From positions 306,513-370,512 of the forward strand of contig JAHDIQ010000001.1 in assembly GCA_020630715.1 (NCBI GenBank): a DNA stretch of 64,000 bases, read 5' to 3'. The position numbers and the translations under genes were made by a program. Under the pieces are notes generated by a model that ran no database searches, was not told where the DNA came from, and worked only from the letters and a program-made list of their open reading frames with translations. Position 1 is the first letter of the stretch. Each line of letters starts with the position of its first letter. This stretch comes from Nonlabens sp. (GTDB lineage Bacteria > Bacteroidota > Bacteroidia > Flavobacteriales > Flavobacteriaceae). Below are positions 56 to 61,769 of the stretch, in pieces.

Positions 56-3000
56 CCCCATCGGCGAGAGCGCTACACATCTTGACTCAGGAACCTACGA
101 GATCATCCAGAACAGGTTGCGCAAGCAAAAAACAGACCTGCAACAACGACTAGCGACACTCAATGAGGAACGCAAAAAAGTCTTCGGTTCTCTAGAAACC
201 CAATTGATCGCAAATGATCGTATCAATACAGAAAATAACTGTATCGCACGCGATATCATCGCTTTGGGTAATACCTGCATCTTTGGATATAATGTACATT
301 TTGGACTGCGCACAGAAATACAGCTTAGTGATGTTTTTAGTGTTTATGAATTTACTCGTGATGGTGAGGAATTAAGCTTTCGCGAAAGCGAAACAGGACT
401 CAACATCATCGCAGATCCAGTGTTTCAAACAGATTTTGAAAACTTATATAAGTACTACCGCAATACTATATTTTCAAAGTTTGCGGTCATGGGGAATTAC
501 CTACACATGGTGTTTCAGCTAAGTGACTCTATTACAGATATCAAGACTTTTAAATGGCTTATTAAAGAAAATAGCCTGGAATATATTGATAATAGAAGTG
601 ATCATGAATATCGTTTTCCAGATCAGTATGGTTTTAAATGGATAGAGGCTGGACGTGATGACCAGCGTTATGGAGTGCATGCTCATGTTTCAATAAAAGA
701 TAAAGTCTTTGTAGAAGCTATAGGCGGTGATATCACCATTAAAGTAGAAGATAATACTGATGATGGTCTAGGGATTTATAATGAACCGGTAGAACATCGC
801 GACCAGACGCTAGATGACGGCCAGTACCGTTATGCAGATTTGGGTAATTTAATCGCCATAGAAATCAAGCCTTTTCAAGAAGAGTCTCGCTTTTTTATCT
901 ATAATCATAAGATCAAACAGGTAGAAAAAATAGATAGTATCGCACAGGCAGCGATATTACTACCAGATGATCAGGGAATTATTTTCCCTAGTGGTTATTA
1001 TTTACAAACTGGTGAATACAATGTTTTTCCGTCTGAAACTGGTGCGCTTAAATTTCAAGATAAAATAGCATCACCTAATGGTGAAGATCATTTGTATGTG
1101 TTTTACAATCCAAAAAAAGGATTGTATGTACTGATGTCTTATAACGTGATAGAGCAAGAGGTGAAAACACCTATTATTTGTAACGGTTTTACGATTATGG
1201 ATGGTGGTGAGCTGGCTTACTTCCGTACAGAACAAGAACAGACTAAACATCACATGATGCAAATATGGCAAACGCCATACATTAAAGGTGCTGTACTACC
1301 ATCAGAACATCAGGATACGTTACTTTTTAAAATAGGAAATAAAGACATCGTAAGAGCGATGGCGTCATCTTATGAACTCATCACACTTTTAAATAAGGAA
1401 GATAGCTATGAAGGGTTATACGATGACATCGCTAGATCTTCTAAAGACATTACAGATGCTTTTTACTGGCTAGATGAGAAAGAAACGCAACAGCTTTCTA
1501 TACCTATAAGCGAAATTAATAAAGCTGCAAATGCTGCTATTGACGAGTTTGAAAAAGTAAAACAACTGCGTCGCAATGCAACTGCGCAAACTAAGGCGAT
1601 AAGTAAAAGCTCTGAAGAGCTGTTTAACAAAGTAAAAAGCACATCCTTTAAATCGATTAATGATTTTGTACAGTTACTTACACAGTTGCGCACTTTGCGC
1701 GGTGAGGCGATAGGACTTTATGAAATACGTTATATAGATACTGATTTTATTAAAGGTATTGAAGAACAAATCATTGAGCAAAATGAATTGATCTCTAGAC
1801 GTGCTGTTACGTTTTTACTAGATGATAAAGCACTGGCACCATACCATGATGCGGTACAGGAAAAACAAGAAGCGCTAGACGATACTAAAAAAGTCATCGA
1901 GATTAAAGCGCTGGAGAAAGATGTCAACCAGATTGCACAAGATCTAGAATTACTGATAGAAATAGTTTCTAATTTAGAAATCGAAGACACTTCTCATTCT
2001 ACTAAAATCATTGAGAACATTTCGCTCATTTTTGCGACGATCAACCAGCTAAAAGCGGCGATAAAAAATAAAGTTACCACAGTAGGTAAAAAAGAAGCTC
2101 AAGCAGATTTTGCCGCACAATTAAAACTGGTGGATCAAAGCATTATCAACTATCTAGACATTGCAGATACGCCAGAGAAATGCGATGAGTTTTTGACAAA
2201 AATTTCTATTGCTCTAGAAGAGTTAGAAGGAAAGTTTGCAGATTTTGATGAGTATCTCACAGCAATAATAGAAAAACGGGAAGAAGTTTATGCGGCTTTT
2301 GATAACCGTAAAAACAACATCGTTGCCGCACGCAATAAAAAAGCACTTGCTTTACAAAATGCAGCACAACGCATCATAAAAGGTGTACAAAATCGAGCAA
2401 AATCACTAGATAGTGCTACAGAAATTAATGGCTACTTTGCCAGTGATTTAATGATTAATAAAGTGCGCGATATCGTTGTGCAACTCAATGATCTGGACGA
2501 TGCAGGAAAGGCCGAAGCTATTGAAACTGCCCTTAAAGTAGCTCGAGAAGATGCCCTGCGTAAGTTAAAAGACAAGCAGGAACTCTATGAAGATGGTGAT
2601 AACATCATTAAGTTAGGGAAACATAAATTTGGTGTCAATAAACAGGAGTTAGATTTAACCATTGTCTTTAAAGATGATCAGTTATTTTATCACTTAACTG
2701 GTACTGATTTTTACCAGCCACTTCATCACGACGTTTTAGAACAATCTCGCGATATCTGGAATCAGGAATTAGTTTCAGAAGACGCTACGGTGTATCGATC
2801 TAGCTATTTAGCATATACTATTTTTAGCTCTCATGATATACAGAAATTACGCGAGTTAACTAATACAGAATTACTAGAAACCGTTCAAGAAGCCGCTAGT
2901 CAGAATTATGCCGCTGGCTATGTAAAAGGTGTTCATGATCAGGATGCTGCTCAAATATTACACGTGCTATTGTCAAAACATCACGATCTAGGACTACTCA

Positions 3001-4946
3001 CCTATCCGGCTGCAGTAAGAGCGCAAGCTCAATTTTTTTGGAATTCATTGTCTACAGAAAAAAGAGCTCATTTTAATAAATTATTGAAGAATGCAGGATC
3101 AGTTTTGGCAGTTTTTCCTAGCAGTAAAGACTATGATTTTGTTATAGATGAACTGGCAGATGAGATTTTTAAATCAAAGGAGCAGTTAGACACCTCAGCA
3201 GGCGCAGCGCAACATAATCTCAATGCTCGCCATGTCGCTCAGTACCTCTTTTATGAATTAAAAGATAACGACCAGTTTGCGTTAAGTGCCAGCACGCACC
3301 AGTTGAAACAGGCTTTTGAAAAGAAACTTAAAGGCACTAATGCAGATTTAAAATTCAAAAACAGCTTAGAGGCTTGTGAAAATGATTTAGAACGTATAGA
3401 ACTGGTGAGACATTGGGTTTCTGCTTTCGCGAAAGCGGAATCACCACAATCATTATTACCTTATATAGATGAGTGTGTTGCCTACATCCTTTATGGAATT
3501 GAAGGATTACAACAACCTAATGCGGTAAGTGCCATATATGAAATAAAAGGTTTAAAAGGATCACACGCGACTATTGAAGAAGGTGTTTTCCAGTTTAATT
3601 ATCATGAATTTGTAGGTGATCTAAGCTTATTTGTAAGCACAAAAGTACCAGCTTATGAACATTTTAAAACGGCAAAACATGAAGTGACAGAACGTCTAAA
3701 ACAAGAATTACGTCTCGAGGAATTTAAGCCTAGAGTCTTAAGCTCTTTTGTGCGTAATAAATTAATAGACCAAGTGTATTTCCCAATAATAGGCGATAAT
3801 CTATCTAAACAACTAGGAACTGTAGGTGATACAAAACGTACAGACCGTATGGGAATGTTGCTATTAATATCGCCACCAGGATATGGAAAAACAACATTGA
3901 TGGAATATATGGCAAATAGATTAGGCCTTATATTTATGAAAATCAATGGACCAGCGATAGGTCACGAGGTCACTAACGTTGATCCAGAAGCTGCGTCAAA
4001 TGTTGCTACTCGTGAAGAACTTAAAAAGCTAAACATGGCTTTTGAAATGGGTGATAACGTAATGCTATATCTAGATGATATCCAGCATTGTAATCCAGAA
4101 TTTCTACAAAAATTCATTAGCCTAGCAGATGGTACACGACGTATTGAAGGTGTCTATAATGGTCAACCTAAAACTTACGACTTGCGCAGTAAGAAGTTTT
4201 GCGTTGTGATGGCTGGTAATCCTTATACAGAAAGTGGTGATAAATTCCAGATTCCAGATATGCTGGCAAACCGTGCAGACATTTATAATCTAGGTGATAT
4301 CATAGGTGACACGGCTCATTTATTTAAGTTGAGTTTAATTGAAAATGCGCTTACTAGTAATCCTGTATTACAACAATTAAGTAATAAGTATTTTGATGAT
4401 GTTTATGCGTTATTAGATCGTGTAGAAAATGGAGCTACAGAAAATGATCTGAAAGGAAATCACAGTACTCAAGAAATTGCAGATTATGAAGCGGTACTAG
4501 ATAAAGTGGTACGTATACGTGATACAGTTCTTAAAGTAAACGAGACCTATATTTCTAGCGCTGCAATGGACGATGCTTATCGTACAGAACCTAGCTTTAA
4601 ACTACAAGGTTCTTATCGTGATATGAATAAATTAGTGGCAAAAGTGGTGCCTATCATGGATGATAAAGAGTTAGACACCTTACTGATGACGCATTATGAA
4701 AGTGAATCACAAACACTTACCACAGCTGCCGAAGCTAATGTGTTAAAATACAAAGAGCTAATCCATCAATTGACCGACGAAGAGCTGGAACGATGGAATA
4801 GCATTAAAGAAACCTTTGTAAAAAATAATAAACTAAAAGGTCTAGGCGATAGTCAATCCATGGCGCAAATCCTATCTCAAATGATGGAATTTACAGATAA
4901 TCTAGAAGGTATTAAAGAGGTGTTGAGGAAAGGGTTGTCTAAGTGA
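1..4946 (+). CDS. Giant AAA+ DNA-repair-type ATPase (DUF3686 family), 5' end outside window
   Basis: The reading frame is open from the first bases, so the gene starts upstream; the TTG at 117 is only an internal codon. Counted from that TTG there are 1609 residues. The protein resembles the flavobacterial ATPases annotated as DNA repair ATPase (DUF3686 plus AAA, family assignment from memory). A long N-terminal part with predicted coiled coil (about residues 490-880) precedes an AAA+ module with a Walker A motif PPGYGKTT at about residue 1253 and a Walker B motif LYLDDIQ near 1315. The visible N-terminal end carries a seven-residue tandem repeat (DASRPNS). Two copies of the GCTTTCGCGAAAGC palindrome lie in the gene and read as FRES and AFAKA. 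The next gene is convergent. Its cellular role is unproven. Confidence 0.85.
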   Translation, partial: DASRPNSDASRPNSDASRPIGESATHLDSGTYEIIQNRLRKQKTDLQQRLATLNEERKKVFGSLETQLIANDRINTENNCIARDIIALGNTCIFGYNVHFGLRTEIQLSDVFSVYEFTRDGEELSFRESETGLNIIADPVFQTDFENLYKYYRNTIFSKFAVMGNYLHMVFQLSDSITDIKTFKWLIKENSLEYIDNRSDHEYRFPDQYGFKWIEAGRDDQRYGVHAHVSIKDKVFVEAIGGDITIKVEDNTDDGLGIYNEPVEHRDQTLDDGQYRYADLGNLIAIEIKPFQEESRFFIYNHKIKQVEKIDSIAQAAILLPDDQGIIFPSGYYLQTGEYNVFPSETGALKFQDKIASPNGEDHLYVFYNPKKGLYVLMSYNVIEQEVKTPIICNGFTIMDGGELAYFRTEQEQTKHHMMQIWQTPYIKGAVLPSEHQDTLLFKIGNKDIVRAMASSYELITLLNKEDSYEGLYDDIARSSKDITDAFYWLDEKETQQLSIPISEINKAANAAIDEFEKVKQLRRNATAQTKAISKSSEELFNKVKSTSFKSINDFVQLLTQLRTLRGEAIGLYEIRYIDTDFIKGIEEQIIEQNELISRRAVTFLLDDKALAPYHDAVQEKQEALDDTKKVIEIKALEKDVNQIAQDLELLIEIVSNLEIEDTSHSTKIIENISLIFATINQLKAAIKNKVTTVGKKEAQADFAAQLKLVDQSIINYLDIADTPEKCDEFLTKISIALEELEGKFADFDEYLTAIIEKREEVYAAFDNRKNNIVAARNKKALALQNAAQRIIKGVQNRAKSLDSATEINGYFASDLMINKVRDIVVQLNDLDDAGKAEAIETALKVAREDALRKLKDKQELYEDGDNIIKLGKHKFGVNKQELDLTIVFKDDQLFYHLTGTDFYQPLHHDVLEQSRDIWNQELVSEDATVYRSSYLAYTIFSSHDIQKLRELTNTELLETVQEAASQNYAAGYVKGVHDQDAAQILHVLLSKHHDLGLLTYPAAVRAQAQFFWNSLSTEKRAHFNKLLKNAGSVLAVFPSSKDYDFVIDELADEIFKSKEQLDTSAGAAQHNLNARHVAQYLFYELKDNDQFALSASTHQLKQAFEKKLKGTNADLKFKNSLEACENDLERIELVRHWVSAFAKAESPQSLLPYIDECVAYILYGIEGLQQPNAVSAIYEIKGLKGSHATIEEGVFQFNYHEFVGDLSLFVSTKVPAYEHFKTAKHEVTERLKQELRLEEFKPRVLSSFVRNKLIDQVYFPIIGDNLSKQLGTVGDTKRTDRMGMLLLISPPGYGKTTLMEYMANRLGLIFMKINGPAIGHEVTNVDPEAASNVATREELKKLNMAFEMGDNVMLYLDDIQHCNPEFLQKFISLADGTRRIEGVYNGQPKTYDLRSKKFCVVMAGNPYTESGDKFQIPDMLANRADIYNLGDIIGDTAHLFKLSLIENALTSNPVLQQLSNKYFDDVYALLDRVENGATENDLKGNHSTQEIADYEAVLDKVVRIRDTVLKVNETYISSAAMDDAYRTEPSFKLQGSYRDMNKLVAKVVPIMDDKELDTLLMTHYESESQTLTTAAEANVLKYKELIHQLTDEELERWNSIKETFVKNNKLKGLGDSQSMAQILSQMMEFTDNLEGIKEVLRKGLSK
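376..389. repeat. Dispersed palindrome GCTTTCGCGAAAGC (copy 1)
   Basis: Perfect 14-bp palindrome inside the AAA+ ATPase gene, read in frame as S-FRES-E. Confidence 0.95.
3423..3436. repeat. Dispersed palindrome GCTTTCGCGAAAGC (copy 2)
   Basis: Perfect copy inside the AAA+ ATPase gene, read in frame as AFAKA. Confidence 0.95.
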
Positions 4947-7642: not shown

Positions 7643-7945
7643 ATGAGATCTAATAACACGCTAAAACTAGACAGATATATTTTAGGTGCTTCAGTAATTA
7701 CATTACTGTTTTTTACATGGATATATGTTACTTATATCTTTCAAATAGAATGGACAATTGCTGGTGTAATCCATGAGTTATTGATGATCCCAATGATACT
7801 AGTAGCTCCCATATTGTTGTTTTTATCAATTAGACAAGTCAAAAAATCAGGTTTTAACGCAAGTAATACAGCATCTCTAATTATTTCATGTCTTATAACT
7901 ATTGTTATTACTAGTTTATTTGTAGCTGAATTTTTATTGCATTAG
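7643..7945 (+). CDS. Small membrane protein of unknown function
   Basis: One hundred residues with three predicted membrane helices (about 13-32, 40-60 and 77-97) joined by short basic loops. I recognise no family. It lies alone on the plus strand between two minus-strand genes, and its stop overlaps the stop of arfB by four bases (TTAG). The composition is typical of a real small membrane protein, but no partner is evident. Confidence 0.6.
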   Translation: MRSNNTLKLDRYILGASVITLLFFTWIYVTYIFQIEWTIAGVIHELLMIPMILVAPILLFLSIRQVKKSGFNASNTASLIISCLITIVITSLFVAEFLLH

Positions 7946-8340
7946 TATTTAAACCTTCTATTTTCCTTTTTCTCGCTTTGCTTGCGTTTATCGTTCATTC
8001 GTTTGCGTTTTACTGCTTTAGGAATGCTTCTTTTACGCCTGCGTTTTGGTACAATTGCGGCATTATGTAATACGGTAATGAGTTTCTTAAAAGCTAGTTC
8101 TTTGTTCTTTGCCTGACTTCTGGATTCCTGACAGCTTATTTTTAAAAGGCCATTTTGAGTAAGTCTGCTTTTTAAGGAGTTTAATATTTGTAGATATTCC
8201 GCTTTCGCGAAAGCGAGACTATTCACAACATCTAGCTCTAGTTGAACTTTTGTCGCTACTTTATTAGCATGCTGACCACCAGGACCACTGCTGGCCACTG
8301 CGGTATATTTTACCTCTTTATGTAGTTGATCGACGTCCAT
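7942..8340 (-). CDS. arfB: Peptidyl-tRNA hydrolase ArfB (ribosome rescue)
   Basis: A 132-residue ICT1/YaeJ-type protein that releases nascent chains from ribosomes stalled without a stop codon. It has the catalytic GGQ in SSGPGGQHANK (residues 18-28) and the strongly basic C-terminal tail (about 100-132, rich in K and R) that enters the empty mRNA channel. It is the last gene of the seven-gene operon; its ATG follows the DUF4301 stop with no gap. A GCTTTCGCGAAAGC palindrome at 8201-8214 codes for AFAKA in the domain between GGQ and tail. The length is normal for the family. Confidence 0.92.
   Translation of the reverse strand: MDVDQLHKEVKYTAVASSGPGGQHANKVATKVQLELDVVNSLAFAKAEYLQILNSLKSRLTQNGLLKISCQESRSQAKNKELAFKKLITVLHNAAIVPKRRRKRSIPKAVKRKRMNDKRKQSEKKENRRFKY
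8201..8214. repeat. Dispersed palindrome GCTTTCGCGAAAGC (copy 3)
   Basis: Perfect copy inside arfB, read as AFAKA, with flanks ATTCC and GAGAC. Confidence 0.95.
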
Positions 8341-9895: not shown

Positions 9896-10447
9896 TTAGA
9901 GCGTTTGTAACGCTTTTAATGCATTATTCAATCTATCGTCGCCTAGACCTGAAATTAACTGATAAGGTTTATTGAACTCCTCTAGCGCATTTTTAAATAG
10001 GTTGAAAAATGCTTCTCGCTGTTCTGGTCTATCTCTTAAATCGTCATTAGTCCACGGCGTGTCTATATCCATTAATAAATATAAGTCATAATATGCATTA
10101 TGCACTGCTTCTAGTAATGGATCTGGTACTTTGTCAAAATATGCCTTACAATACACATAGGTTTCTAGCACATCTGTATCACAAAACAAATAATCTGTTG
10201 CGCGATCTAAGGCTTCATTTTCTGCAACTCTTTGTCCTATGGCTATAGGCATAATATCGTCATAGGTAGCGGCGAGTTGCGTACGGTTAAATTTTTCCTG
10301 TAGGTAATCGCGAGCAAATTCTTCAATATAGGTAGTATTGTGGTGTTGAGCTAGCTTTCGCGAAAGCGTGCTTTTTCCAGTACTTTCTGGACCATACAGC
10401 ACTATTTTTTTACCAGAGAAATGTCGTTGTTCAGGTATTTTTTCCAT
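9896..10447 (-). CDS. NadR-type ribosylnicotinamide kinase (P-loop)
   Basis: A 183-residue P-loop kinase resembling the C-terminal domain of NadR, which phosphorylates nicotinamide riboside to NMN. The Walker A motif GPESTGKST lies at about residues 19-27, followed by the conserved EEFARDYL and later FCDTDVLET. There is no adenylyltransferase domain and no helix-turn-helix, so it is a stand-alone kinase. It overlaps pnuC by 46 bases, so the transporter and kinase are translationally coupled, as expected for uptake and trapping of nicotinamide riboside. The palindrome at 10354-10367 codes for LSRK directly after the P-loop. Confidence 0.85.
   Translation of the reverse strand: MEKIPEQRHFSGKKIVLYGPESTGKSTLSRKLAQHHNTTYIEEFARDYLQEKFNRTQLAATYDDIMPIAIGQRVAENEALDRATDYLFCDTDVLETYVYCKAYFDKVPDPLLEAVHNAYYDLYLLMDIDTPWTNDDLRDRPEQREAFFNLFKNALEEFNKPYQLISGLGDDRLNNALKALQTL
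10354..10367. repeat. Dispersed palindrome GCTTTCGCGAAAGC (copy 4)
   Basis: Perfect copy inside the NadR-type kinase gene, read as LSRK in the helix following the P-loop. Confidence 0.95.
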
Positions 10448-14153: not shown

Positions 14154-14167
14154 GCTTTCGCGAAAGC
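14154..14167. repeat. Dispersed palindrome GCTTTCGCGAAAGC (copy 5, intergenic)
   Basis: Perfect copy between ahcY and the next gene, with flanks ATTAC and GAATTA. It ends 16 bases before an ATG and has no U-run, so it does not look like a terminator. Confidence 0.95.
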
Positions 14168-17390: not shown

Positions 17391-17404
17391 GCTTTCGCGA
17401 AAGC
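17391..17404. repeat. Dispersed palindrome GCTTTCGCGAAAGC (copy 6, intergenic)
   Basis: Perfect copy 15 bases beyond the stop of the DUF4199-like gene, with flanks ATTAC and GAAAT. Confidence 0.95.
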
Positions 17405-21520: not shown

Positions 21521-21563
21521 TCGCTTTCGCGCGATGCACTGAGCTTGCCGAAGTGAAAGCGTA
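21521..21563. repeat. Interrupted copy of the dispersed palindrome
   Basis: TCGCTTTCGCG and GTGAAAGCG arms, normally adjacent, are separated by an insert containing CACTGAGCTTGCCGAAGTG (21537-21555), itself ending in CACT/AGTG inverted ends. This is a different dispersed repeat type inside, or recombined with, the GCTTTCGCGAAAGC palindrome. Confidence 0.7.
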
Positions 21564-24941: not shown

Positions 24942-26012
24942 CTAAAGATATGAATTCCAGTAAGAACTCATAAATCGGTGAATTAAAATAGGTAATGGTT
25001 TTTGAAAAGCATCCTGAATAGAAATAGCTTCTTCTACGTGGTAATCTAACTGTAATACCCAGAAATACGCATGAATTTTGCGGTGTGAAAGTTTATGAAT
25101 AATCGGTTCAGGATTATAGATGGTGATGGGTAATGATGTGGTGGTGATTCCGCTTTCGCGAAAGCGTAATTCCATCAATTCTCTCATTCCATCCAGCTGT
25201 AGTAACTCATCTAACAATATAGGACCGTTACTTTCTAGATAGGGAAATTCAAATAATCCAGCCCATATTCCTGATTGTGGTCTTTGTTGCATCACGGTTT
25301 TATGATCTGGAGTATCTAATACAATGTAATGGTGAAACAGGTTTTTAACTTTCGTCTTTTTACTCTTTACTGGCAATTCATCTATTCTAGAATCGTTAAA
25401 AGCAACGCAATCTGTCTGAAATGGACATATATTACAATTAGGATTTTTAGGCACACATTGTAAAGCGCCTAATTCCATGATGGCCTGATTATGTGTTGCT
25501 GCATTTTTAGGATCCAGCAATTGATTTGCTAGTTTCTTAAATTCTTTTATTCCAGCAGACTCGTTAATAGGAGTTGCAATTCCATAAATACGTGATAGCA
25601 CTCTGTAGACATTTCCATCTACCACGGCTACAGCTTCATTAAAAGCAAAACTAGCAATCGCCGCTGCGGTGTATTCGCCTACTCCTTTTAACTCTAGTAA
25701 ATCTTTAAAATTATCTGGGAATTCACCTGATGCTACTACTTGCTGTGCGGCTTTATGAAGATTACGTGCTCTGGAATAATAGCCTAATCCTTGCCATAAT
25801 TTAAGAACGTCCTCTTGTGGTGCTAGTGCAAGATCCTTCACGGTAGGAAACGCTTCTACAAACCGTTCATAGTAAGGTAAACCTTGCTGTACTCTAGTTT
25901 GTTGTAGGATCACTTCACTTAACCATATATAATAAGGATCTGTAGTTTCTCGCCATGGCAATTCTCTTTTGTGAATATGATACCAATTTAATAGCTTATT
26001 AGAAAAACTCAT
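24942..26012 (-). CDS. mutY: A/G-specific adenine glycosylase
   Basis: A 356-residue MutY that removes adenine mispaired with 8-oxoguanine. It shows the catalytic glutamate in SEVILQQTRV, the helix-hairpin-helix LKGVGEYTAAAIASFAF followed by the VVDGNVYRVLSR aspartate, and the 4Fe-4S cysteines in CVPKNPNCNICPFQTDC (about residues 191-207). A NUDIX-like C-terminal domain follows. The palindrome at 25152-25165 inserts FRES into that C-terminal domain. It diverges from the HU gene. Confidence 0.97.
   Translation of the reverse strand: MSFSNKLLNWYHIHKRELPWRETTDPYYIWLSEVILQQTRVQQGLPYYERFVEAFPTVKDLALAPQEDVLKLWQGLGYYSRARNLHKAAQQVVASGEFPDNFKDLLELKGVGEYTAAAIASFAFNEAVAVVDGNVYRVLSRIYGIATPINESAGIKEFKKLANQLLDPKNAATHNQAIMELGALQCVPKNPNCNICPFQTDCVAFNDSRIDELPVKSKKTKVKNLFHHYIVLDTPDHKTVMQQRPQSGIWAGLFEFPYLESNGPILLDELLQLDGMRELMELRFRESGITTTSLPITIYNPEPIIHKLSHRKIHAYFWVLQLDYHVEEAISIQDAFQKPLPILIHRFMSSYWNSYL
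25152..25165. repeat. Dispersed palindrome GCTTTCGCGAAAGC (copy 7)
   Basis: Perfect copy in mutY, read as FRES, with flanks ATTCC and GTAAT. Confidence 0.95.
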
Positions 26013-28352: not shown

Positions 28353-28826
28353 ATGCCACAAGAATCTTATACCGTAGAACAAGCGATGCGTTCCATAGAG
28401 CGATACTGTGCTTATCAAGAGCGCTGTCATAAAGAGGTAGAAGATAAACTGCGCAAGATGGGAATGATCCCACTAGCGATAGATGAAATAATAGGCCATC
28501 TCATCCAGCACAATTTTCTAAATGAAACTCGATTTGCACAAAGTTATGCGCGTGGAAAATTTCGTCATAAACATTGGGGACGCAATAGAATCATTAGAGA
28601 ACTTAAAATGCGTAAGATTAACCAGCGCACTATCGATCTCGCTCTTAAAGAAATAGATAGTGATGAATACTGGGATTCTTTTATTTCGCTTTCGCGAAAG
28701 CGAAATGACCAACTTCAAAGTGAAAAAGATAAGTATCGTAAACGTAAAAAACTAGCAGACTACTTATTGTATAGAGGCTGGGAAGGAGATCTAGTCTACG
28801 ACCGTGTAAAAGAACTGATCCCGTAA
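28353..28826 (+). CDS. recX: Regulatory protein RecX
   Basis: A 157-residue RecX, a modulator of RecA filaments, built of three-helix repeats. Recognisable segments are MRSIERYCAYQERCHKEV, LRKMGM, IIGHLIQHNFLNETRFAQSYARGKFRHKHWGRNRI and DYLLYRGWEGDLVYDRVKEL. The promoter box lies four bases before the ATG, so a leaderless message is likely. The palindrome at 28688-28701 codes for LSRKR. recA is not in the window. Confidence 0.92.
   Translation: MPQESYTVEQAMRSIERYCAYQERCHKEVEDKLRKMGMIPLAIDEIIGHLIQHNFLNETRFAQSYARGKFRHKHWGRNRIIRELKMRKINQRTIDLALKEIDSDEYWDSFISLSRKRNDQLQSEKDKYRKRKKLADYLLYRGWEGDLVYDRVKELIP
28688..28701. repeat. Dispersed palindrome GCTTTCGCGAAAGC (copy 8)
   Basis: Perfect copy in recX, read as LSRKR, with flanks TTTC and GAAAT. 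Confidence 0.95.
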
Positions 28827-30908: not shown

Positions 30909-32036
30909 TTATTGCTTTTCTAATAATAAACTTACGGCATTACCACCAAAACCTGTTGCGTTTATTAAAATTAGTTTAGGGTTTGTAATTCCTTTAGGGT
31001 TAGAAAAGGATTTTTTTAAATAAGGTATTTTAAAAATCTGATCTTCTTTAAACATTTGTAAAGCCATAGCTATACTCATCGCACTGCTAGCACCTAGCGT
31101 ATGACCTATTTGCCATTTATTATTACATAACGCTGGATGCTGTTTTCCAAATACCTTACAAATAGCATTATATTCTGCCTGATCTCCTTTTATAGTTCCA
31201 GGTGAATGAGTAATAATGACATCCACAGCATCTCTATCAATTTGCGCCATAGCATTCTTCATAGCTTGTTGTAATCCTATTCCATCATCTGTAACGCTGG
31301 TGGCACTTTTTAAAGACTCTATAGAACTTCCATATCCTATGATACGGGCATTACAACTTGGTTGCTTCTCTTTTGATAGTAAAAAGCAAGCTGCAGCTTC
31401 TCCTAATATCATAGAGTTTGATTTTTTATTGAGATCTAGCGCTCTACATGGAAATTCCTTTAAATCATTTGCATAAATGCGTAAGGATCGCATTTGTTCT
31501 ATGGTAAAAGATGTCAACGGCGCTTCTGATCCACCAGCTATAAATTGATCTACCATATCACTTTGCAACCATGCCATCCCATTTAAAATTGAATGTGATG
31601 CTGTTGCACAAGTGATAGAATGTGAAAATGCTACTGCATCTATCCCTAAATCCTGAGCGATCCACGTTGATATATTCCCTAGAGTTGTTAATGGTGATGT
31701 TTGAGTTGGAGTGATGCCGCTTTCGCGAAAGCAAGAATAACCATCTTCCCAGACCTGAGTAGCACCACGACTAGAACCTATATTAATAGCTGTTTTACCA
31801 GTAGTTAAATGCAATTCGCGCGCTGTAAGAATCGCTAATAAGACAGATCGATCTAATTGTGAATAGTTACGAGATTCCTTCTTTAGAGCATTTACTAACG
31901 CTTCACTATTATCACTGAGTTGTGAAACTATAGCATTTGAAGATTCAGAAAAATAAGCCTGATCGCTTTGAAACCCTTCAGATGTTAAAGGGGAAATCGT
32001 TGCCGACTGATTGATATAAATAGGTTGTTGTAGCAC
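30909..32036 (-). CDS. Beta-ketoacyl synthase (KAS I/II-like) within the biotin cluster
   Basis: A 375-residue condensing enzyme starting with GTG. The nucleophile C143 lies in SITCATASHS, with catalytic histidines in THSPGT (about 277) and IGHTLGASSA (about 310), so it should be active. It is shorter than FabF by about 35 residues. It is flanked by bioB and, across one secreted-protein gene, by bioA-bioD-bioF. No bioC, bioH or bioW is visible here, so a role in making the pimeloyl chain is an attractive inference. The palindrome at 31719 codes for FRES near residue 103. Confidence 0.88.
   Translation of the reverse strand: MLQQPIYINQSATISPLTSEGFQSDQAYFSESSNAIVSQLSDNSEALVNALKKESRNYSQLDRSVLLAILTARELHLTTGKTAINIGSSRGATQVWEDGYSCFRESGITPTQTSPLTTLGNISTWIAQDLGIDAVAFSHSITCATASHSILNGMAWLQSDMVDQFIAGGSEAPLTSFTIEQMRSLRIYANDLKEFPCRALDLNKKSNSMILGEAAACFLLSKEKQPSCNARIIGYGSSIESLKSATSVTDDGIGLQQAMKNAMAQIDRDAVDVIITHSPGTIKGDQAEYNAICKVFGKQHPALCNNKWQIGHTLGASSAMSIAMALQMFKEDQIFKIPYLKKSFSNPKGITNPKLILINATGFGGNAVSLLLEKQ
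31719..31732. repeat. Dispersed palindrome GCTTTCGCGAAAGC (copy 9)
   Basis: Perfect copy in the ketoacyl synthase gene, read as FRES, with flanks TGCC and AAGAA. Confidence 0.95.
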
Positions 32037-33288: not shown

Positions 33289-34569
33289 TTATATTTCATT
33301 AAGTATTAAATTTATTTTTTGGTAGGTGTCATTTAGTTCTGATACATGGCTTGTAAAAGGTGGCACTAAGTAAACCGTATTTCCTAAAGGCCTTAAGAAA
33401 ATACCATGATCCATAAACCATTTTAATATTTCATCACGTTCATTTCCATAGCGTTGCATCTTTATATTCAAATCTATAGCTAGGATCACGCCACAAGATC
33501 TAGTGTGCATAACCTTAGGATGATCTTTAATGGTATCTATAAAATAAAGATGTGATTCACTAATAATTTTTATATTATCCTGAATTTCCTGAGAAATTAA
33601 TAGGTCTATTGCTGCACTGGCTACCGCACATCCTAGCGGATTCCCACTGTAAGTATGACCATGGAAAAAACCTTTGGCAAGTTCATCATCATAAAAAGCC
33701 TCATAAACCTCCTGCGTACAGCTAGTTATTGCCATAGGCATAATGCCACCTGTAAGCGCTTTAGAAAAACACATGATATCTGGCTTATTCATCACCTGAT
33801 CACTCGCAAATAAAGTTCCTGTTTTGCCAAAACCTGTCATCACCTCATCTGCGATGGTGAGAATTCCGCTTTCGCGAAAGCGTAATAACAACCTACATAA
33901 ATCCTCTGGCTTATGCATTTGCATTGCCGCAGCACCTTGCACTAATGGTTCATAAATAAAGGACGCTACCTTATGATTTGCGACTAAATCATCAATTTGA
34001 GCTAGAACAGATTCTATATTATGAGCATTAGGGACGGGAATGCGTTTTACGTCAATGAAAAAGTCTTCAAATGGCCCATTATAAACAGACAAACTGCTGG
34101 CACTCATCGCTCCAAACGTGTCGCCATGAAATCCATTATCAAATGCGATCACCACGTTGCGTTTCTCACCGCGATTAAAATGATACTGAAATGCCATTTT
34201 TAAAGCGATCTCTACACTGGTAGATCCATTTTCTGAAAAGAAAAGCTTTTGTTGATTATACGGTAAGATACCTATCAGTTTCTTTGATAACACTACTGCT
34301 GGTTCATGCGTCATTCCTGCAAAAACAACATGATGTAATTGATCTACCTGATCTTTTATCGCCTTAGTAAGTACTGGGTTTGCATGACCATAACTACAAG
34401 TATACCAGCTGGAAATAGCGTCAAAATATTCATTTCCATCTACGTCGTATAAGTAATTTCCAGAGGCATGAGAAATTGCTAATGGTTCACTGGCTGTTTT
34501 ATACTGTGTTAGTGGATGCCAGATATGTTGCTGGTCCAGATGCTGGATTTCTTCCTTATTTAATGGCAT
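33289..34569 (-). CDS. bioA: Adenosylmethionine-8-amino-7-oxononanoate aminotransferase
   Basis: A 426-residue class III aminotransferase making 7,8-diaminopelargonic acid. Landmarks are LDQQHIWHPLTQYKT at the start, FFSENGSTSVEIALKMAFQY, IADEVMTGFGKTG and the PLP lysine in MCFSKALTGG (about residue 272). The start overlaps bioD by 14 bases. The palindrome at 33868-33881 rewrites the segment before IADE as FRESGIL, in a position that varies in the family. Confidence 0.96.
   Translation of the reverse strand: MPLNKEEIQHLDQQHIWHPLTQYKTASEPLAISHASGNYLYDVDGNEYFDAISSWYTCSYGHANPVLTKAIKDQVDQLHHVVFAGMTHEPAVVLSKKLIGILPYNQQKLFFSENGSTSVEIALKMAFQYHFNRGEKRNVVIAFDNGFHGDTFGAMSASSLSVYNGPFEDFFIDVKRIPVPNAHNIESVLAQIDDLVANHKVASFIYEPLVQGAAAMQMHKPEDLCRLLLRFRESGILTIADEVMTGFGKTGTLFASDQVMNKPDIMCFSKALTGGIMPMAITSCTQEVYEAFYDDELAKGFFHGHTYSGNPLGCAVASAAIDLLISQEIQDNIKIISESHLYFIDTIKDHPKVMHTRSCGVILAIDLNIKMQRYGNERDEILKWFMDHGIFLRPLGNTVYLVPPFTSHVSELNDTYQKINLILNEI
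33868..33881. repeat. Dispersed palindrome GCTTTCGCGAAAGC (copy 10)
   Basis: Perfect copy in bioA, read as FRES, with flanks ATTCC and GTAAT. Confidence 0.95.
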
Positions 34570-35661: not shown

Positions 35662-36780
35662 TTATTTTAAGATTCTGGCTAGGATGTGAAGCATTCCTTC
35701 TATTTGAGTTTCAGTATTATAACTGTGCAAACATAGTCGTAATCGTTCTTGCCCGTGCGGTACAGTAGGAGAAAGAATTGCTCTTACATCGTATCCATTT
35801 TTCTGCAAGGCTTTTGCTGCTGCTTTTGCTACCTCATTGCCTGTGATAAGGCATATTTGTATGGCTGTTTCGCTTTCGCGAAAGCGTAATCGCAATCCAT
35901 TCTGAATCACTAAACGATTAAACCGCTGGATCAACTGCTGTAGTTTTGGCACATTTTCATGACCTGACTCTAGTAGTTCATAACCAGCCTGAATGCAACC
36001 CAAAGCGTGCGGTGGGATCGCCGTGGTATAAATAAAACTGCGCGCAAAATTGATCAAATATTGTTGTAAGTCAAAACTGCCCAAAACGGCAGCACCATGA
36101 CTACCCAGCGCTTTACCAAAGGTCACTACTCTTGCAAAAACCGAATCCTGCAATCCTAAATCCTGAGCCAGTCCAGCACCGTGCTTACCTAGGACACCTA
36201 GCGAATGCGCCTCATCCAGAATGAGCCGTGCATGATCATGTTTTTCAACTAGTTTCACAATGGTTTTTAAGGGTGCCATGTCACCATCCATGGAAAAAAC
36301 AGATTCTGTAATCACATAGACGTTTTGATCTTCACCTTTACCAAATTTATCTAGTAAGATCGCTAGATGATCCATATCATTATGGCGGTATTTAAGCGAT
36401 CGCGCCATACTTAACTGGATGCCATCACGTATGCTAGCATGAACTAACTCGTCATAAAGAATTAAGTCACCACGCAATGCAACACTACTTATTAAACCTA
36501 TGTTAGCATCATATCCAGAGTTAAACAACAAGGCGTTTTCAACCTGATGGAAATGGGCAATTTGCTGTTCTATCTGATCGTGCAAGGCACTATGACCTGA
36601 TAGTAGTCTAGAACCTGTCGCGCCACTAGCATAATCGCCATGAGGTTGAATGATTTTGGCAAATCCTAGATAATCATTTGATGAAAAATCGATGAGTTCC
36701 TGATCAGGTACCACGAGTTCGCGCATGCTTTTGCCTAGATGGCGCATTCCTAGTTTACGTAGTAATTTATCAGGTAACAT
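35662..36780 (-). CDS. bioF: 8-amino-7-oxononanoate synthase
   Basis: A 372-residue PLP enzyme condensing pimeloyl-ACP or -CoA with alanine. It shows IDFSSNDYLGFA, ATGSRLLSGHSALHDQIE, LILDEAHSLGVLGKHGAG and the PLP lysine in VTFGKALGSHGA (about residue 227). The palindrome at 35872-35885 codes for FRESET. It is the first gene of the biotin cluster on this strand and lies next to the 596-bp non-coding stretch. Confidence 0.95.
   Translation of the reverse strand: MLPDKLLRKLGMRHLGKSMRELVVPDQELIDFSSNDYLGFAKIIQPHGDYASGATGSRLLSGHSALHDQIEQQIAHFHQVENALLFNSGYDANIGLISSVALRGDLILYDELVHASIRDGIQLSMARSLKYRHNDMDHLAILLDKFGKGEDQNVYVITESVFSMDGDMAPLKTIVKLVEKHDHARLILDEAHSLGVLGKHGAGLAQDLGLQDSVFARVVTFGKALGSHGAAVLGSFDLQQYLINFARSFIYTTAIPPHALGCIQAGYELLESGHENVPKLQQLIQRFNRLVIQNGLRLRFRESETAIQICLITGNEVAKAAAKALQKNGYDVRAILSPTVPHGQERLRLCLHSYNTETQIEGMLHILARILK
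35872..35885. repeat. Dispersed palindrome GCTTTCGCGAAAGC (copy 11)
   Basis: Perfect copy in bioF, read as FRES, with flanks GTTTC and GTAAT. Confidence 0.95.
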
Positions 36781-44005: not shown

Positions 44006-45517
<1,512 letters not shown>

Positions 45518-45670: not shown

Positions 45671-45684
45671 GCTTTCGCGAAAGC
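45671..45684. repeat. Dispersed palindrome GCTTTCGCGAAAGC (copy 12, intergenic)
   Basis: Perfect copy between glmS and atpD, with flanks ATTCT and GGAAT. Confidence 0.95.
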
Positions 45685-51417: not shown

Positions 51418-52401
51418 TTGAAAAAAGCACTACTTAAAATCATAAAAATAGTTCTACCATTATTGTTAGGACTATTCCTGATATACATTTCTTACAGCCA
51501 GTTTTCTAGCGAACAGATAAACGCGATTAAAAAAGACATCATAGATGCAAATTACTGGTGGATCGCACTAGGAATGTTCCTTGCTTTATTAAGTCATTTA
51601 TCACGTGCATGGCGCTGGAATTATATGCTACACGCCATAGGATATCGCCCTAAATATTTACATAATGTTATCGCCATAGGTGCTGGTTATGCTATGAATT
51701 TACTCATCCCACGTAGCGGTGAAGTTTCTAGAGCTGTTATTGTAAATCGTACAGATGGTGTTCCTGTAGATAAAGCCATAGGAACCATTATTGCAGAGCG
51801 TGTTCTGGACTTTATCATTCTTTTGCTCATCACCGCAACGGCATTATTAGTAGCGGGCGATCGTGTGTTTCAATTCTTTAATGATCGTTTAGGTGCCGCT
51901 TTCGCGAAAGCGGAATTATCACAATTCATCTACCTAGCAATAGGCCTCGTTGTACTTACGACCTTAGTAGTTTTGGCACTGAAACATTTCAACATTCTTC
52001 ACAAACTACGTAATTTCATTTCTGGTTTAAAGGAAGGTTTTATGACCATCTGGACCATGAAAAAAAAGTGGTTATACCTAGCCCATACCGTTTTCATTTG
52101 GGTGATGTACTTGCTTATGTTTTACGTGAGTGTTTTTGCAATTCCGGCATTATCTACTATTCCTATCGCTGGGATTTTAAGCGCGTTTGTAGCAGGAAGT
52201 TTTGCCGTAGCATTTACAAATGGTGGTCTAGGTGCGTATCCACTTTTTATAGCACAAGTATTAGTATTGTTTCAAGTTCCAGAAACCTTAGGAACGGCAC
52301 TAGGCTGGATTTTATGGCTTAGCCAGACCGCTTTAGTACTGGTTTATGGGTTACTATCTTTTTTACTGCTGTCTTTAAAAAGCAGTGTTTCCACAAAATA
52401 A
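51418..52401 (+). CDS. YbhN/LPG-synthase-type flippase-like membrane protein
   Basis: A 327-residue protein with about eight membrane helices of the lysylphosphatidylglycerol synthetase membrane-domain family (PF03706-type). Typical segments are SHLSRAWRW (about 59-67) and NLLIPRSGEVSRAVIVNR. Related proteins move lipids or lipid-linked sugars. It starts with TTG six bases after panD, so translation may be coupled. The palindrome at 51898-51911 codes for AFAKAEL in a loop. The substrate is unknown. Confidence 0.85.
   Translation: MKKALLKIIKIVLPLLLGLFLIYISYSQFSSEQINAIKKDIIDANYWWIALGMFLALLSHLSRAWRWNYMLHAIGYRPKYLHNVIAIGAGYAMNLLIPRSGEVSRAVIVNRTDGVPVDKAIGTIIAERVLDFIILLLITATALLVAGDRVFQFFNDRLGAAFAKAELSQFIYLAIGLVVLTTLVVLALKHFNILHKLRNFISGLKEGFMTIWTMKKKWLYLAHTVFIWVMYLLMFYVSVFAIPALSTIPIAGILSAFVAGSFAVAFTNGGLGAYPLFIAQVLVLFQVPETLGTALGWILWLSQTALVLVYGLLSFLLLSLKSSVSTK
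51898..51911. repeat. Dispersed palindrome GCTTTCGCGAAAGC (copy 13)
   Basis: Perfect copy in the flippase-like gene, read as AFAKA, with flanks GTGCC and GGAAT. Confidence 0.95.
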
Positions 52402-55493: not shown

Positions 55494-56621
55494 TTGGCTT
55501 TAAACAGAACTCATAAATGGTGGATTCTAGCAGGTAGTCTAATCCTACTTTTAGGTATCATATATGTGGTGAAGCCTGAATGGTTAGACTTCATTCTAAG
55601 ACCATCACAACGTACTATTTATGAGCGCAGTTTTAAAGAACGTCCAGAGGATTTAAAAACTTGGGAAGCACTAACGTCCATCGCATTTAGTGATAACATC
55701 GCTATAAATAAGCCGTATTCATCCTATGTAGTAAATGAATCAAATGCTCACGCATCAGGTTATACTATTCCTATTCAATACGGTGAGCAACTTGTAGTCA
55801 CTATAGCATCAGATGATAAAAAACACTGGATTCTAGAGTTGCGTGATGGGAACCATAAACTACTAGAAGACGCCAGATTAAAAGAAGGCGTTTTGTACGC
55901 TACTTACACGCCAGAATCCTCTCAAAACCTGCGCGTTATTTTACAAGGTAAAATCAATCAATCAGCTGCTGGGTTCTTGAAAATCTATACACAACCTACT
56001 TATCGTTTTCCTGTTGCCGGAAAAGGGAATCATGATATTCAGAGTTTTTGGGGTGCACCTCGAGGTGGTGGCAGTAGATCTCATGAAGGTAATGATATTT
56101 TTGCGCCAAAAAAACATCCAGTAGTGGCTATAAGCTACGGTAGTATTTACAGCATACGCAATCGCGGACTAGGTGGAAAACAAGTTTGGGTAGAAGATTA
56201 CGATACTGGATTACTTCATTACTATGCACATCTAGATAGCTGGAGTGTTTATGAAGACCAGATGGTGTGGCCTGGTGATACCATAGGATTTATAGGAAAT
56301 ACTGGAAATGCAGCCACAACACCACCTCATTTACATTTTGGGATTTATAAAAATGGTAAAGCCGTAGACCCTAAACCGTTTATCTGGAAGATCACAGTTC
56401 CAGAAAACAGTGTCCAGTTGAAGTACAGCACTAAAGCTAGAGCGATGGGAATTGCCGCTAACTTAAGGGAAACGCCAGACTCAAATGCAGGAATTCTACA
56501 AGATTTAAAAAGACAAGAAGTTATAGTTTTAGGAAACAGTGGTAACTGGTATCAGGTAAGAACCTCGTCAGGTATGACTGGCTATGCTCATAAATCTGTG
56601 CTAGAATTAATAGCAGATTGA
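55494..56621 (+). CDS. M23 peptidase with C-terminal SH3 domain
   Basis: A 375-residue cell-wall hydrolase anchored by an N-terminal membrane helix (about 7-24). The LytM-type zinc site is complete: SHEGNDIFAP (HxxxD, about residue 197), HYYAHLDSW and HLHFGIY (about 280). A bacterial SH3 domain covers about 310-375 (KARAMGIAANLRETPDSNAG..., ending VRTSSGMTGYAHKSVLE). The start codon is TTG, one base after the stop of the TlpA gene. Its last 34 bases overlap the convergent TPR gene. Confidence 0.9.
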   Translation: MALNRTHKWWILAGSLILLLGIIYVVKPEWLDFILRPSQRTIYERSFKERPEDLKTWEALTSIAFSDNIAINKPYSSYVVNESNAHASGYTIPIQYGEQLVVTIASDDKKHWILELRDGNHKLLEDARLKEGVLYATYTPESSQNLRVILQGKINQSAAGFLKIYTQPTYRFPVAGKGNHDIQSFWGAPRGGGSRSHEGNDIFAPKKHPVVAISYGSIYSIRNRGLGGKQVWVEDYDTGLLHYYAHLDSWSVYEDQMVWPGDTIGFIGNTGNAATTPPHLHFGIYKNGKAVDPKPFIWKITVPENSVQLKYSTKARAMGIAANLRETPDSNAGILQDLKRQEVIVLGNSGNWYQVRTSSGMTGYAHKSVLELIAD

Positions 56622-58045
56622 ACCAAATCTAACGTAACAGCATACGTATCTCTTTGCTCCATTTTAGCTTTTAACCATGCGTAAAAACTCATCACAAATA
56701 AATCTTCACGTTCTACACCTATCCAGGTAAATGATCGCTCTACCCGATCTTTAAATTTTGTAGTCGTCATTATTTTAGGATCGTTATCATAAGCCTGTAA
56801 GAAACTAATGTAAGTAAGAACGCGATCTTCTCCACGAGCAATCAATTCTTTACGGTATTTTTTTACAAAACTGCGCAATCTAGAATGAACCAGATCTAAT
56901 TGATCACGTTCTATATGAATTAACAACTGGGTGATTTTTAATTTGATTAGATAGTTAAAACCTATGTTTTTCTCTATCCATGCATCTGTGTGGTGAATGT
57001 CCCTTAAAGTAATCGACGCTTCTTTAAATTGCAGGTTATGAAAAAGATAGGTTGCCTGTGCCAGTGCTAATTGAGGTGTTCCTTTTTTAATACTAGCTAC
57101 CACAGTGATCGCTTTATCATTATTTCCTGTAAAGTTGTAGACCAGCGATAGAATTAACGCATAACGTTGATGATCTGTATTGCTAAATTTATAATGCTTG
57201 ATCTCATCTAGTACTTGCTGCGCTTGGTTAAATTGCTTGTTACGCAAGTAAACATTTGCAATGATGAACAAGGTTTCTAAATGATAATAAGTATGTCTAA
57301 TCGCGAGATGCTTCTTTTCTGTGAGAATGTGATGTGCTCTTTGTATAAAAGGATAGATCGCATAGTAATTCAATTCTAAATGCGCTGCTTGTGCAGTAAT
57401 ATTCATCAATTGATAGATGGACTTATAACTTAACTGCTGGTCCAGTTGTATATCATGTACGGCCAGTTCTTGTTCTATAAGCTCCAGAACATTTTTAGAT
57501 TGCCCTATTTGCTGTTTGATACGTGCATAAACTATTGCTAGTTTCATTTCTTGAGCATACCATTTTTGATTACGTCCTACTAGTTTAATAAGCGGTTCTA
57601 GTGGTTTTTCTAAGACATGAATATATTGTAATTGTGTATGATAGATTTCATTCAATAAGGCATATAATTCTAATTCTCTTGCTTGCTTTTCAGCTTTTTC
57701 TAATTGTTTCCAGCCTAGTTTATAGAGTTTTCGTTCTAATAAAATACGGGAAGCTAGTAGGCGTTTTAACAATTCCATTTCTTGTTGTTGCTCGCCTTTA
57801 AAATGGTGTATCGCTAGATAATCGATGATGCTATCCTGTAATCTTTTGGTTAGTGCGTGCAGTGCATTTTTGTTTGATGCACCATATAATTTCATGTCCA
57901 GATCTTTATAAATTCCAGATGTTATGTATTGAAACAACTGTATGTTTTTAACGTCAGGTCTTTTGTTTTTTGCTTTCGCGAAAGCGTAATAACCCAACCT
58001 TTCTTCTTCACTTAAACTGTTTACTAGCTTAAAAATCGTACTCAT
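56588..58045 (-). CDS. Large helical-repeat protein of unknown function
   Basis: A soluble protein of about 485 residues, almost all helical, with degenerate TPR-like repeats and no enzymatic motif. The ATG at 58045 (MSTIFKLVNSLSEEERLGYY) is preferred to the one six codons upstream, because the charged start matches this protein type. The palindrome at 57972-57985 codes for AFAKAK near the N-terminus. Many flavobacterial proteins of this pattern have no known role. Its 3' end overlaps the M23 gene. Confidence 0.7.
   Translation of the reverse strand: MSTIFKLVNSLSEEERLGYYAFAKAKNKRPDVKNIQLFQYITSGIYKDLDMKLYGASNKNALHALTKRLQDSIIDYLAIHHFKGEQQQEMELLKRLLASRILLERKLYKLGWKQLEKAEKQARELELYALLNEIYHTQLQYIHVLEKPLEPLIKLVGRNQKWYAQEMKLAIVYARIKQQIGQSKNVLELIEQELAVHDIQLDQQLSYKSIYQLMNITAQAAHLELNYYAIYPFIQRAHHILTEKKHLAIRHTYYHLETLFIIANVYLRNKQFNQAQQVLDEIKHYKFSNTDHQRYALILSLVYNFTGNNDKAITVVASIKKGTPQLALAQATYLFHNLQFKEASITLRDIHHTDAWIEKNIGFNYLIKLKITQLLIHIERDQLDLVHSRLRSFVKKYRKELIARGEDRVLTYISFLQAYDNDPKIMTTTKFKDRVERSFTWIGVEREDLFVMSFYAWLKAKMEQRDTYAVTLDLVQSAINSSTDL
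57972..57985. repeat. Dispersed palindrome GCTTTCGCGAAAGC (copy 14)
   Basis: Perfect copy near the start of the helical-repeat protein gene, read as AFAKA, with flanks TTTT and GTAAT. Confidence 0.95.
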
Positions 58046-58199
58046 ATATCGTAAGTAATACAAATACTAATATACTTGTTTTAAATTATTTATAATATAT
58101 AGTTTGTGTTATTTATGTAAGAAAAGGTTAAAAATTGAATTTTGAGAACTTCATAACCGTCGCAAATTTGTCCCGTCTAACACATCAAAACAAACAGAC

Positions 58200-60506: not shown

Positions 60507-60566
60507 AAATGGATTTTATTATTTTACGAAGGTAATCATTGAACGGCATTTTGGTAGTAAAAACAG

Positions 60567-60680: not shown

Positions 60681-61769
60681 TTACTCCTTATACATCCCAA
60701 CGATTAACTCATCCTTATCATTCATAGTCGCGCGATACATTCCTGCGGTGTTGAATTCCATAGAAACATTTCCTAAATGGTCTAGTGCAACGATGCCACC
60801 AGTACCGCCTAAATTGACTAGTTTTTTCTGGATGACTTCTTCAGTAGCTTGTTCTAGCGACAAGTTTTTATATTCCATCAATGCGCTGATGTCGTAGGCA
60901 ACTTGGGCACGTATAAAATACTCGCCATGACCAGTACTACTGACACCACAGGTTGCATTGTTTGCATACGTACCACTACCAATAATAGGCGAATCGCCTA
61001 TACGACCGTATTTTTTATTGGTCATACCGCCAGTGCTGGTTCCGGCAGCGATATTGCCATTTTTATCCAGCGCTACACAACCTACGGTTCCATACTTAGA
61101 ATCCTTGATAAATGGATCTTCCAATTCTAATTGGGCTACTTTTTTATCGTTTTGCGCTGTTTTTTCGGCTTCTCTTTTTAAGACTCGTTGTAACGACTGG
61201 TAGCGATTTTCTGTATAGAAATAAGAGTTAGGTACGATCTCTATGTTCGGATCTTGTAACACTTTCGCGAAAGCGTCACCACCAGCACCACTCAACAACA
61301 CATGATCTGAGTCTGTCATCACCTTACGGGCTAGTGATATCGGGTTTTTCACGGTCGTCACGCCAGCTACCGCACCAGCGTTGAGTGTTTTCCCATCCAT
61401 AAAACTAGCATCTAACGAGTTGATTCCATCGTGCGTAAATACCGCTCCTTTACCTGAATTGAACAGTGGTGAATCTTCCATGATTCTAATGCTCGCCTCA
61501 ACAGCGTCCATCGCGTCACCGCCATTTTTAAGAATAATATGGCCAGCTTTAACAGCTTCAGTAAGTTTTTCGTTATACTGTTGTTCCAGCTCTGGAGTCA
61601 TGTTTTCCTTTTTTATCGTTCCAGCGCCGCCGTGAATGACAATGGCATATTCACTGGTACGTTGCTCAATACCATCTTCACTAATTACAATGGAACCATC
61701 ACCACTTTCTAATGTCATATTACAACTTATGACTACAACGGCTAAGAATAAATAGAAGAGATTTTTCAT
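60681..61769 (-). CDS. Isoaspartyl peptidase/L-asparaginase (Ntn hydrolase), exported
   Basis: A 362-residue Ntn-type asparaginase with a lipoprotein-like signal (VVVISC, cysteine near 16). IHGGAGTIKKEN opens the alpha chain, and the self-cleavage site precedes T in SKYGTVGCVA (near 227), followed by GGMTNKKYGRIGDSPIIGSGTYA and STGHGEYFIR. It processes isoaspartyl peptides and glycosyl- or free asparagine in the periplasm. A one-base variant of the palindrome (61261-61274) codes for AFAKV. No partner is adjacent. Confidence 0.93.
   Translation of the reverse strand: MKNLFYLFLAVVVISCNMTLESGDGSIVISEDGIEQRTSEYAIVIHGGAGTIKKENMTPELEQQYNEKLTEAVKAGHIILKNGGDAMDAVEASIRIMEDSPLFNSGKGAVFTHDGINSLDASFMDGKTLNAGAVAGVTTVKNPISLARKVMTDSDHVLLSGAGGDAFAKVLQDPNIEIVPNSYFYTENRYQSLQRVLKREAEKTAQNDKKVAQLELEDPFIKDSKYGTVGCVALDKNGNIAAGTSTGGMTNKKYGRIGDSPIIGSGTYANNATCGVSSTGHGEYFIRAQVAYDISALMEYKNLSLEQATEEVIQKKLVNLGGTGGIVALDHLGNVSMEFNTAGMYRATMNDKDELIVGMYKE
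61261..61274. repeat. Dispersed palindrome, one-base variant (ACTTTCGCGAAAGC)
   Basis: Thirteen of 14 bases match the family. It lies in the asparaginase gene and is read as AFAKV. Confidence 0.85.

Follow-up and report, generated by a model that had tools for sequence, protein, structure and literature searches.

A 14-bp perfect palindrome, GCTTTCGCGAAAGC, is scattered through the whole genome of a Nonlabens sp., and we tentatively read it as a lineage-specific tag of self DNA that would work in the manner of the uptake sequences known from Haemophilus and Neisseria and be maintained by transformation. The palindrome had been pointed out in a window of 64,000 nucleotides (G000:C15:306513-370512, where G000 is the assembly of 2,978,537 bases and C15 one of its contigs). 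All 14 exact copies and the one-base variant at 61261 that were listed in the initial annotation of this window were found. With up to two mismatches allowed, the window gave 15 matches against a mean of 0.10 in shuffled sequences, and none of 100 shuffles reached 15. The whole genome (2.98 Mb) holds 609 exact copies, or one per 4.9 kb, while 0.0004-0.005 copies are expected from Markov models of order 1-4 (450-kb stretch, motif masked) and the reversed control sequence has none. The claimed excess over chance therefore holds genome-wide, and the copies are not confined to the window.

Distribution and anatomy of the palindrome

All 22 other Nonlabens genomes carry the palindrome in 288-857 copies; 16 relatives from 16 genera outside Nonlabens have zero. 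In a sample of 397 genomes of the family, 80 have a match, and more than 19 copies were seen only in Nonlabens (four genomes) and in one genome from each of two further genera, G367 (857 copies) and G580 (408 copies). At least one match was found in 32 of the 395 genomes sampled from the order, with a maximum of two copies outside the family, and in 16 of the 296 sampled from the phylum, where none outside the family has more than one. A search with the GldE protein (window 23119-24426) returned 52 named loci. The eight closest (74-80% identity, the rest at most 63%) are titled Nonlabens, except for one 'Flavobacteria bacterium BBFL7', and contain two to six exact copies each; among the remaining 44, a single copy is present in one locus (titled Dokdonia) and 43 have none. 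In the GldE tree, G367 joins the Dokdonia locus and G580 joins G371, which is motif-poor; this tree does not show the three motif-rich genera to form one clade. No comparable palindromes were seen in pooled loci of Lutibacter, of Croceivirga, Croceitalea and Muricauda, of Tenacibaculum or of a mixed group, these pools being small and covering one region.

The anatomy of the site was studied in C15:1-450000, the stretch holding 93 of the 609 copies. Besides the 93 exact copies it has 14 with one and nine with two mismatches; eight shuffled palindromes gave no exact, no one-mismatch and zero to two two-mismatch matches in the same stretch. The core is enclosed by a collar, ATTNC/GNAAT, that is symmetric about it. 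This collar had been proposed from the window, and among the 93 exact copies 88% have C adjacent to the core, 77% have T at -3 and 83% have T at -4. Further out, at positions 6-25, the left arm is rich in G and T and the right arm is its mirror, the bias fading by 30-40 bp. The arm words TGTGG, GGTTG and GTGGT are 8- to 11-fold enriched, and the flanks of different copies are alike in composition, not in sequence.

Thirteen of the 14 single mismatches in C15 fall on inner positions 5-10. The inner hexamer TCGCGA occurs 55 times outside the 14-mer in 450 kb, where base composition predicts 48. Recognition of the entire 14-mer is suggested by the exact core and by TCGCGA not being enriched on its own. 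When flanks were scored with a model trained on C15, for which the in-sample mean is 13.9 and random places give -14.5, the sites of G367 averaged 9.2 and those of G580 -3.4; G367 has flanks in common with C15, and G580 the core alone. The single-mismatch copies of C15 look like decayed true sites, because their flank score (13.1) nearly equals that of the exact copies. Those of G367 do not resemble decayed sites (0.6 versus 9.2 for its exact copies).

As the initial annotation had stated, copies lie both inside unrelated genes and between genes. In C15, 63 of 93 are fully within open reading frames (ORFs) and 30 are not, versus 9% of non-coding sequence (ATG-start ORFs), and over five stretches the site density per kb is 2.4-12-fold higher in non-coding than in ORF sequence. 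C15 probably lies close to the origin, as it has a canonical parS at C15:446-448 kb, and terminus-proximal stretches were chosen as those opposite parS, the assumed terminus. In the 200-kb stretch of G022 there are 46 sites, like the average of its genome (634 in ~2.87 Mb), and that of G009 has 23 in its first 118 kb and none in its last 80 kb. With the terminus so assumed, no origin-terminus bias was observed in the sampled stretches, and the motif being palindromic, strand bias is not applicable.

The site-free tract of G009 (G009:C1 ~2570000-2650000) was read as foreign because of its low GC (0.32-0.34 versus 0.36-0.38). The depletion in acquired DNA comes from one low-GC tract, taken to be foreign by its GC, and the motif may serve to separate native from foreign DNA. 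Two phages recorded as Nonlabens phages, P12024L (whole) and P12024S (35,000 of 35,700 bases), contain no copy, even at up to two mismatches. As close relatives they count as one observation. Both have ERF and YqaJ recombination genes and no annotated integrase, and we take them to be virulent.

Other mobile DNA does carry sites. Among the matches listed for IMG/VR there are 85 sites in 80 loci, of which 11 sites have a flank score above 5, and eleven records picked for score or multiplicity hold two to seven copies each (two of these records overlap). The phage record on G782:C1 (L230) has seven copies in 37 kb as well as a repressor, a transposase and a DNA transposition protein (PHROGs), and by these annotations its gene set fits a temperate, transposable phage. 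Clusters were also found in four genomes with total copy numbers of 4 (G125), 16 (G343), 5 (G492) and 8 (G717); their regions (L092-L097, L100) are 67-97% identical across genera in alignments of more than 600 bases, among those listed. Genes in this region of G125 code for an RND pump, an outer-membrane efflux protein, a multicopper oxidase, a heavy-metal P-type ATPase and a tyrosine integrase, and we interpret the shared region as a putative copper-resistance island. Two or three of the four islands share several intact sites at corresponding places, among these a pair 933 bp apart, and other sites are decayed or absent. On the simplest reading, the island spent a lengthy stay in motif-rich hosts and was then transferred.

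Spacing and preservation of the sites

In C15 the intervals between sites average 4,807 bp with a coefficient of variation (CV) of 0.49, compared to 0.98 for random placement (none of 5,000 placements was as low), and the minimum is at least 1,470 bp. The CV is 0.45 on contig C1 (44 sites among the matches listed) and 0.54 in G367. In nine fetched stretches, C1 not among them, four of 372 intervals are below 1 kb, while ~83 pairs were expected. They comprise two intervals of G004 and their counterparts in its close relative G007, 700 and 828 bp long in each and situated near gldE, and they run counter to a clean repulsion. Six stretches were pooled for a pair count (250 sites; G004, G007, G580 and contig C1 omitted, the terminus-proximal stretch of G009 trimmed to 120 kb and that of G022, which contains 5,388 N, to 170 kb). 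Four pairs were found at 1-1.5 kb versus 25 expected, and the expectation was reached at ~3 kb. The spacing pattern is mainly one of local repulsion. Even spacing is contradicted by G004 (C4, 14-435 kb), where the CV is 0.92 (P 0.25), yet there too short intervals are few, with 5 of 93 under 1 kb versus 18 expected. Spacing in G580 is less regular (CV 0.61, P 0.06). A lattice or strict periodicity was not relied on, as shuffling of intervals gave P <0.05 in two of 21 tests (0.004 and 0.028; four stretches), nor did we build upon a periodogram peak at 2,930 bp in C15 (P 0.04).

Preservation of the sites was followed in two close pairs of genomes aligned near gldE over 200 kb each, G004/G007 (95% identity) and G005/G009 (89%). 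From G004 to G007, 52 of 53 sites could be aligned and all 52 were intact, with none of 728 core positions changed; in the reverse direction 52 of 56 were intact. For G005/G009 the numbers were 25 of 26 one way and 26 of 33 the other. Among control 14-mers shifted by 20-300 bp, on average 31.5, 34.1, 7.1 and 8.9, respectively, were intact, and in each case none of 2,000 draws was as high as the observed value. Twelve copies were broken in the partner: seven have one to three base changes in the core, in two the partner carries a 21-base insertion, and three are poorly aligned. None of the 12 was a clean absence of the site alone. These data show that sites turn over by ordinary mutation and that the core is strongly preserved. 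In more distant comparisons the core is frequently retained while the collar drifts, and other sites have been gained or lost.

Possible functions of the palindrome

If the palindrome is an uptake tag, a putative competence-linked reader would favour DNA with the palindrome, its ATTNC/GNAAT collar and the G/T-rich arms. DNA of relatives that bears sites would then be taken up and recombined more often, by which intact sites would be restored and spread, and a second site within a few kb would add no benefit. We infer that such a reader is part of DNA uptake and that transformation maintains the sites. Counted in support of this reading are the copy number, the preservation, the repulsion over 1-3 kb, the enrichment in non-coding DNA, the site-free tract and phages, and the presence of ComEC and DUF5689. 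The ComEC family was found in all seven motif-rich genomes searched for it (and in 10 of 14 control genomes) and DUF5689 in all 11 motif-rich genomes (and in 16 of 17 motif-poor ones).

The uptake signal sequences (USS) of Pasteurellaceae and the DNA uptake sequences (DUS) of Neisseriaceae similarly come in hundreds of copies within and between genes, are depleted in coding sequence and scarce in new DNA, are fairly evenly spaced and are common to related species, as reported in PMC7811141 and PMC1939737. The Nonlabens motif differs from them in being a perfect 14-bp palindrome with symmetric arms, in its repulsion over 1-3 kb, in its scarce mismatched copies and in its occurrence in Bacteroidota. 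For USS, under-representation in newly acquired and in coding DNA is described (PMC7811141). The same paper expects a relatively even distribution from molecular drive, and its introduction also speaks of an uneven one. Karlin and others regarded even spacing as a sign of a role in replication, repair or compaction, and the author of PMC1939737, where this is recounted, finds the spacing of uptake sequences less even than they held. Closer to Nonlabens, Riemerella columbina, placed by its authors in the Flavobacteriaceae, is reported to be competent and to favour its own DNA; the k-mer counts given there (up to 10 bases) include A/T-rich ones and nothing resembling the palindrome (PMC7965970). 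The transformation machinery of R. anatipestifer, of the same nearby group, is described as unusual, requiring ComEC, DprA, ComF, RecA and four proteins of unknown function, one of them with DUF5689 (PMC8459023).

Several points weigh against an uptake tag. Uptake sequences as described in PMC1939737 are not palindromes, whereas GCTTTCGCGAAAGC is a perfect one. The scarcity of mismatched copies in the 450 kb of C15 may count against it as well, an Actinobacillus genome being reported to have more one-mismatch than exact uptake-sequence copies (PMC1939737). Competence of Nonlabens is only presumed, and most of the evidence would suit other functions just as well, so long as their benefit levels off within a few kb. 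The presence of ComEC and DUF5689 discriminates nothing, because both are common outside the motif-rich genomes too. DUF5689, the sole surface gene tried, is not supported as the sequence reader and is probably not that reader, since it is too variable for an invariant motif: identity to the G000 copy is 38-59% in eight other Nonlabens genomes, and the DUF5689 tree does not group the motif-rich genera. In G000 the DUF5689 gene adjoins an ORF that we read as resembling the end of an outer-membrane barrel.

Among the roles suggested in the initial annotation, an uptake signal appears to fit best. The genome-wide copies, in unrelated genes as well as intergenic, and their presence in relatives were borne out; a HIP1-type marker or methylation at the level of the hexamer and a segregation function through ParB were not. 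No earlier report of GCTTTCGCGAAAGC was found among the listed titles, abstract starts and term counts, which leave out most subscription papers. Literature matches to the sequence came via the 10-mer TTTCGCGAAA only, none with the 14-mer, and in the literature on Nonlabens or Dokdonia with palindromes, and on Nonlabens with repeats or an uptake sequence, no report of the palindrome was found. As an uptake signal it would be, to our knowledge, the first highly iterated one outside Pasteurellaceae and Neisseriaceae.

The palindrome may also be a new kind of chromosome-wide landmark, which we consider possible though short of probable. A putative reader would recognise the exact palindrome and its arms, each site would serve a few kb and exclude neighbours, and long-settled DNA, such as temperate phages and the copper island, would acquire the landmark. 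This would reveal a new genome-wide DNA reader. On either reading the motif could be used to tell native from foreign DNA and to trace the hosts in which a mobile element has previously resided.

The main rival to the uptake tag, although we find it rather doubtful, is a binding site every few kb for a putative dimeric protein with a part in organising or servicing the chromosome, such as a loop anchor or nucleoid protein. A homodimer would read the double-stranded palindrome, and the G/T-rich arms would give extra contacts. Such a protein would agree with the exactness of the palindrome, the symmetry of collar and arms, the strong preservation, the repulsion, the sites in the island and in some phage records, and the terminus-proximal density of G022. 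However, G009 tolerates at least 80 kb without any site, most sister genera manage without the palindrome, and no reader was found, ParB being ruled out.

Sites of the parS and Noc kind are palindromes of 14-16 bp with TTTC...GAAA halves that are read by dimers. The Nonlabens motif is like them a short palindrome with TTTC...GAAA halves, and differs in its half-site spacing, in being present in hundreds of copies and in showing no terminus depletion in the sampled stretches. A reader of the ParB/Noc family was rejected, and with it the segregation signal: each genome has one normal chromosomal ParB (~300 aa), canonical parS is retained alongside the motif, and no column of the ParB alignment distinguishes nine motif-rich from 11 motif-poor genomes. 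A second ParB-domain protein of ~600 aa occurs in G019, G125, G371, G110 and G160, G019 being the only one of the nine motif-rich genomes to have it.

It is distinctly unlikely that the palindrome is a Chi-like landmark of recombination or repair, which would regulate an end-processing nuclease and protect self DNA. The density of one copy per 4.9 kb is near that of Chi in E. coli (1,008 in ~4.64 Mb; PMC1939737), the surroundings are G/T-rich as around Chi of RecBCD, and the two related phages without sites have recombination genes of their own. Unlike Chi, the palindrome is orientation-free, and a RecC-dependent Chi was rejected, as the RecC family was found in none of 26 genomes, motif-rich or not (AddAB was not searched for).

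We regard as more unlikely still a sequence like HIP1 (GCGATCGC; highly iterated palindrome 1) of cyanobacteria, made and maintained by a DNA methyltransferase together with repair. Both motifs are palindromic, highly iterated, genome-wide and lineage-specific, and the Nonlabens one has TCGCGA inside. In seven of the 14 single-mismatch copies of C15 the change is C-to-T or G-to-A at the two CpG steps, which is compatible with a methylated cytosine and gives a weak hint of cytosine methylation. The unit in Nonlabens is, however, the 14-mer, the hexamer alone is not enriched, and we know of no methylase with a 14-bp site (methyltransferases were not searched for, nor was a methylome used). Its variants lie at inner bases, whereas HIP1 deviations are reported to prefer the outer ones, and it reaches ~200 per Mb versus 500-2500 per Mb for HIP-type motifs (PMC4390886).

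A small mobile repeat of the repetitive extragenic palindrome (REP) or miniature inverted-repeat transposable element (MITE) kind, multiplying by insertion, would account for many palindromic copies but is very improbable, given that two thirds of the C15 copies (63 of 93) are wholly within ORFs, that flanks are alike in composition rather than sequence and that clean absence of a site was not observed in the close pairs. Another repeated palindrome of unknown function in a single genome, the 18-nt near-palindrome of Caldithrix abyssi, is described as having 38 exact core copies that, unlike those of Nonlabens, are mostly intergenic, with a strand-specific centre (PMC5317091).

Copies in the window

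None of the copies in the window has a strand of its own. Those at 376..389 and 3423..3436 both lie within ORF 117-4946 (DUF3686 / AAA ATPase). Further exact copies are found within an RF-1 domain ORF at 7942-8340(-) (site 8201..8214), an AAA-domain ORF at 9896-10447(-) (10354..10367), the RecX ORF 28353-28826(+) (28688..28701), a ketoacyl-synthase ORF at 30909-32036(-) (31719..31732), a class-III aminotransferase ORF at 33289-34569(-) (33868..33881), a class I/II aminotransferase ORF at 35662-36780(-) (35872..35885) and an LPG-synthase-TM ORF at 51418-52401(+) (51898..51911). The copy at 25152..25165 is within ORF 24942-26012(-), which has HhH-GPD and NUDIX_4 domains and presumably encodes a MutY-like protein; an exact copy is present at the aligned place in three other loci (L009, L010 and L011). 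Considering ORFs of at least 100 aa, three copies are intergenic: 14154..14167 (ORFs 12743-14074 / 14508-14870), 17391..17404 (16535-17245 / 17420-17905) and 45671..45684 (44006-45514 / 45757-47604). The copy at 57972..57985 is close to the 5' end of ORF 56588-58063(-), which has no Pfam match and whose TTG start is uncertain, and the one-mismatch copy at 61261..61274 is within an asparaginase ORF at 60681-61769(-). A 1207-aa ORF at 39550-43173, also lacking a Pfam match, sits in a 9.8-kb site-to-site gap with a GC of 0.325.

The interrupted copy of the initial annotation is real, its halves spanning 21522..21561 with 24 additional bases that split the site centrally. Similar splits (~20-24 bases added) were observed twice in G004 near gldE and once in the terminus stretch of G022. 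The insert is GCGATGCACTGAGCTTGCCGAAGT in the window, and elsewhere a palindromic insert with CTGCCGGCAG was found; small hairpin repeats may have inserted into the centre of the palindrome.

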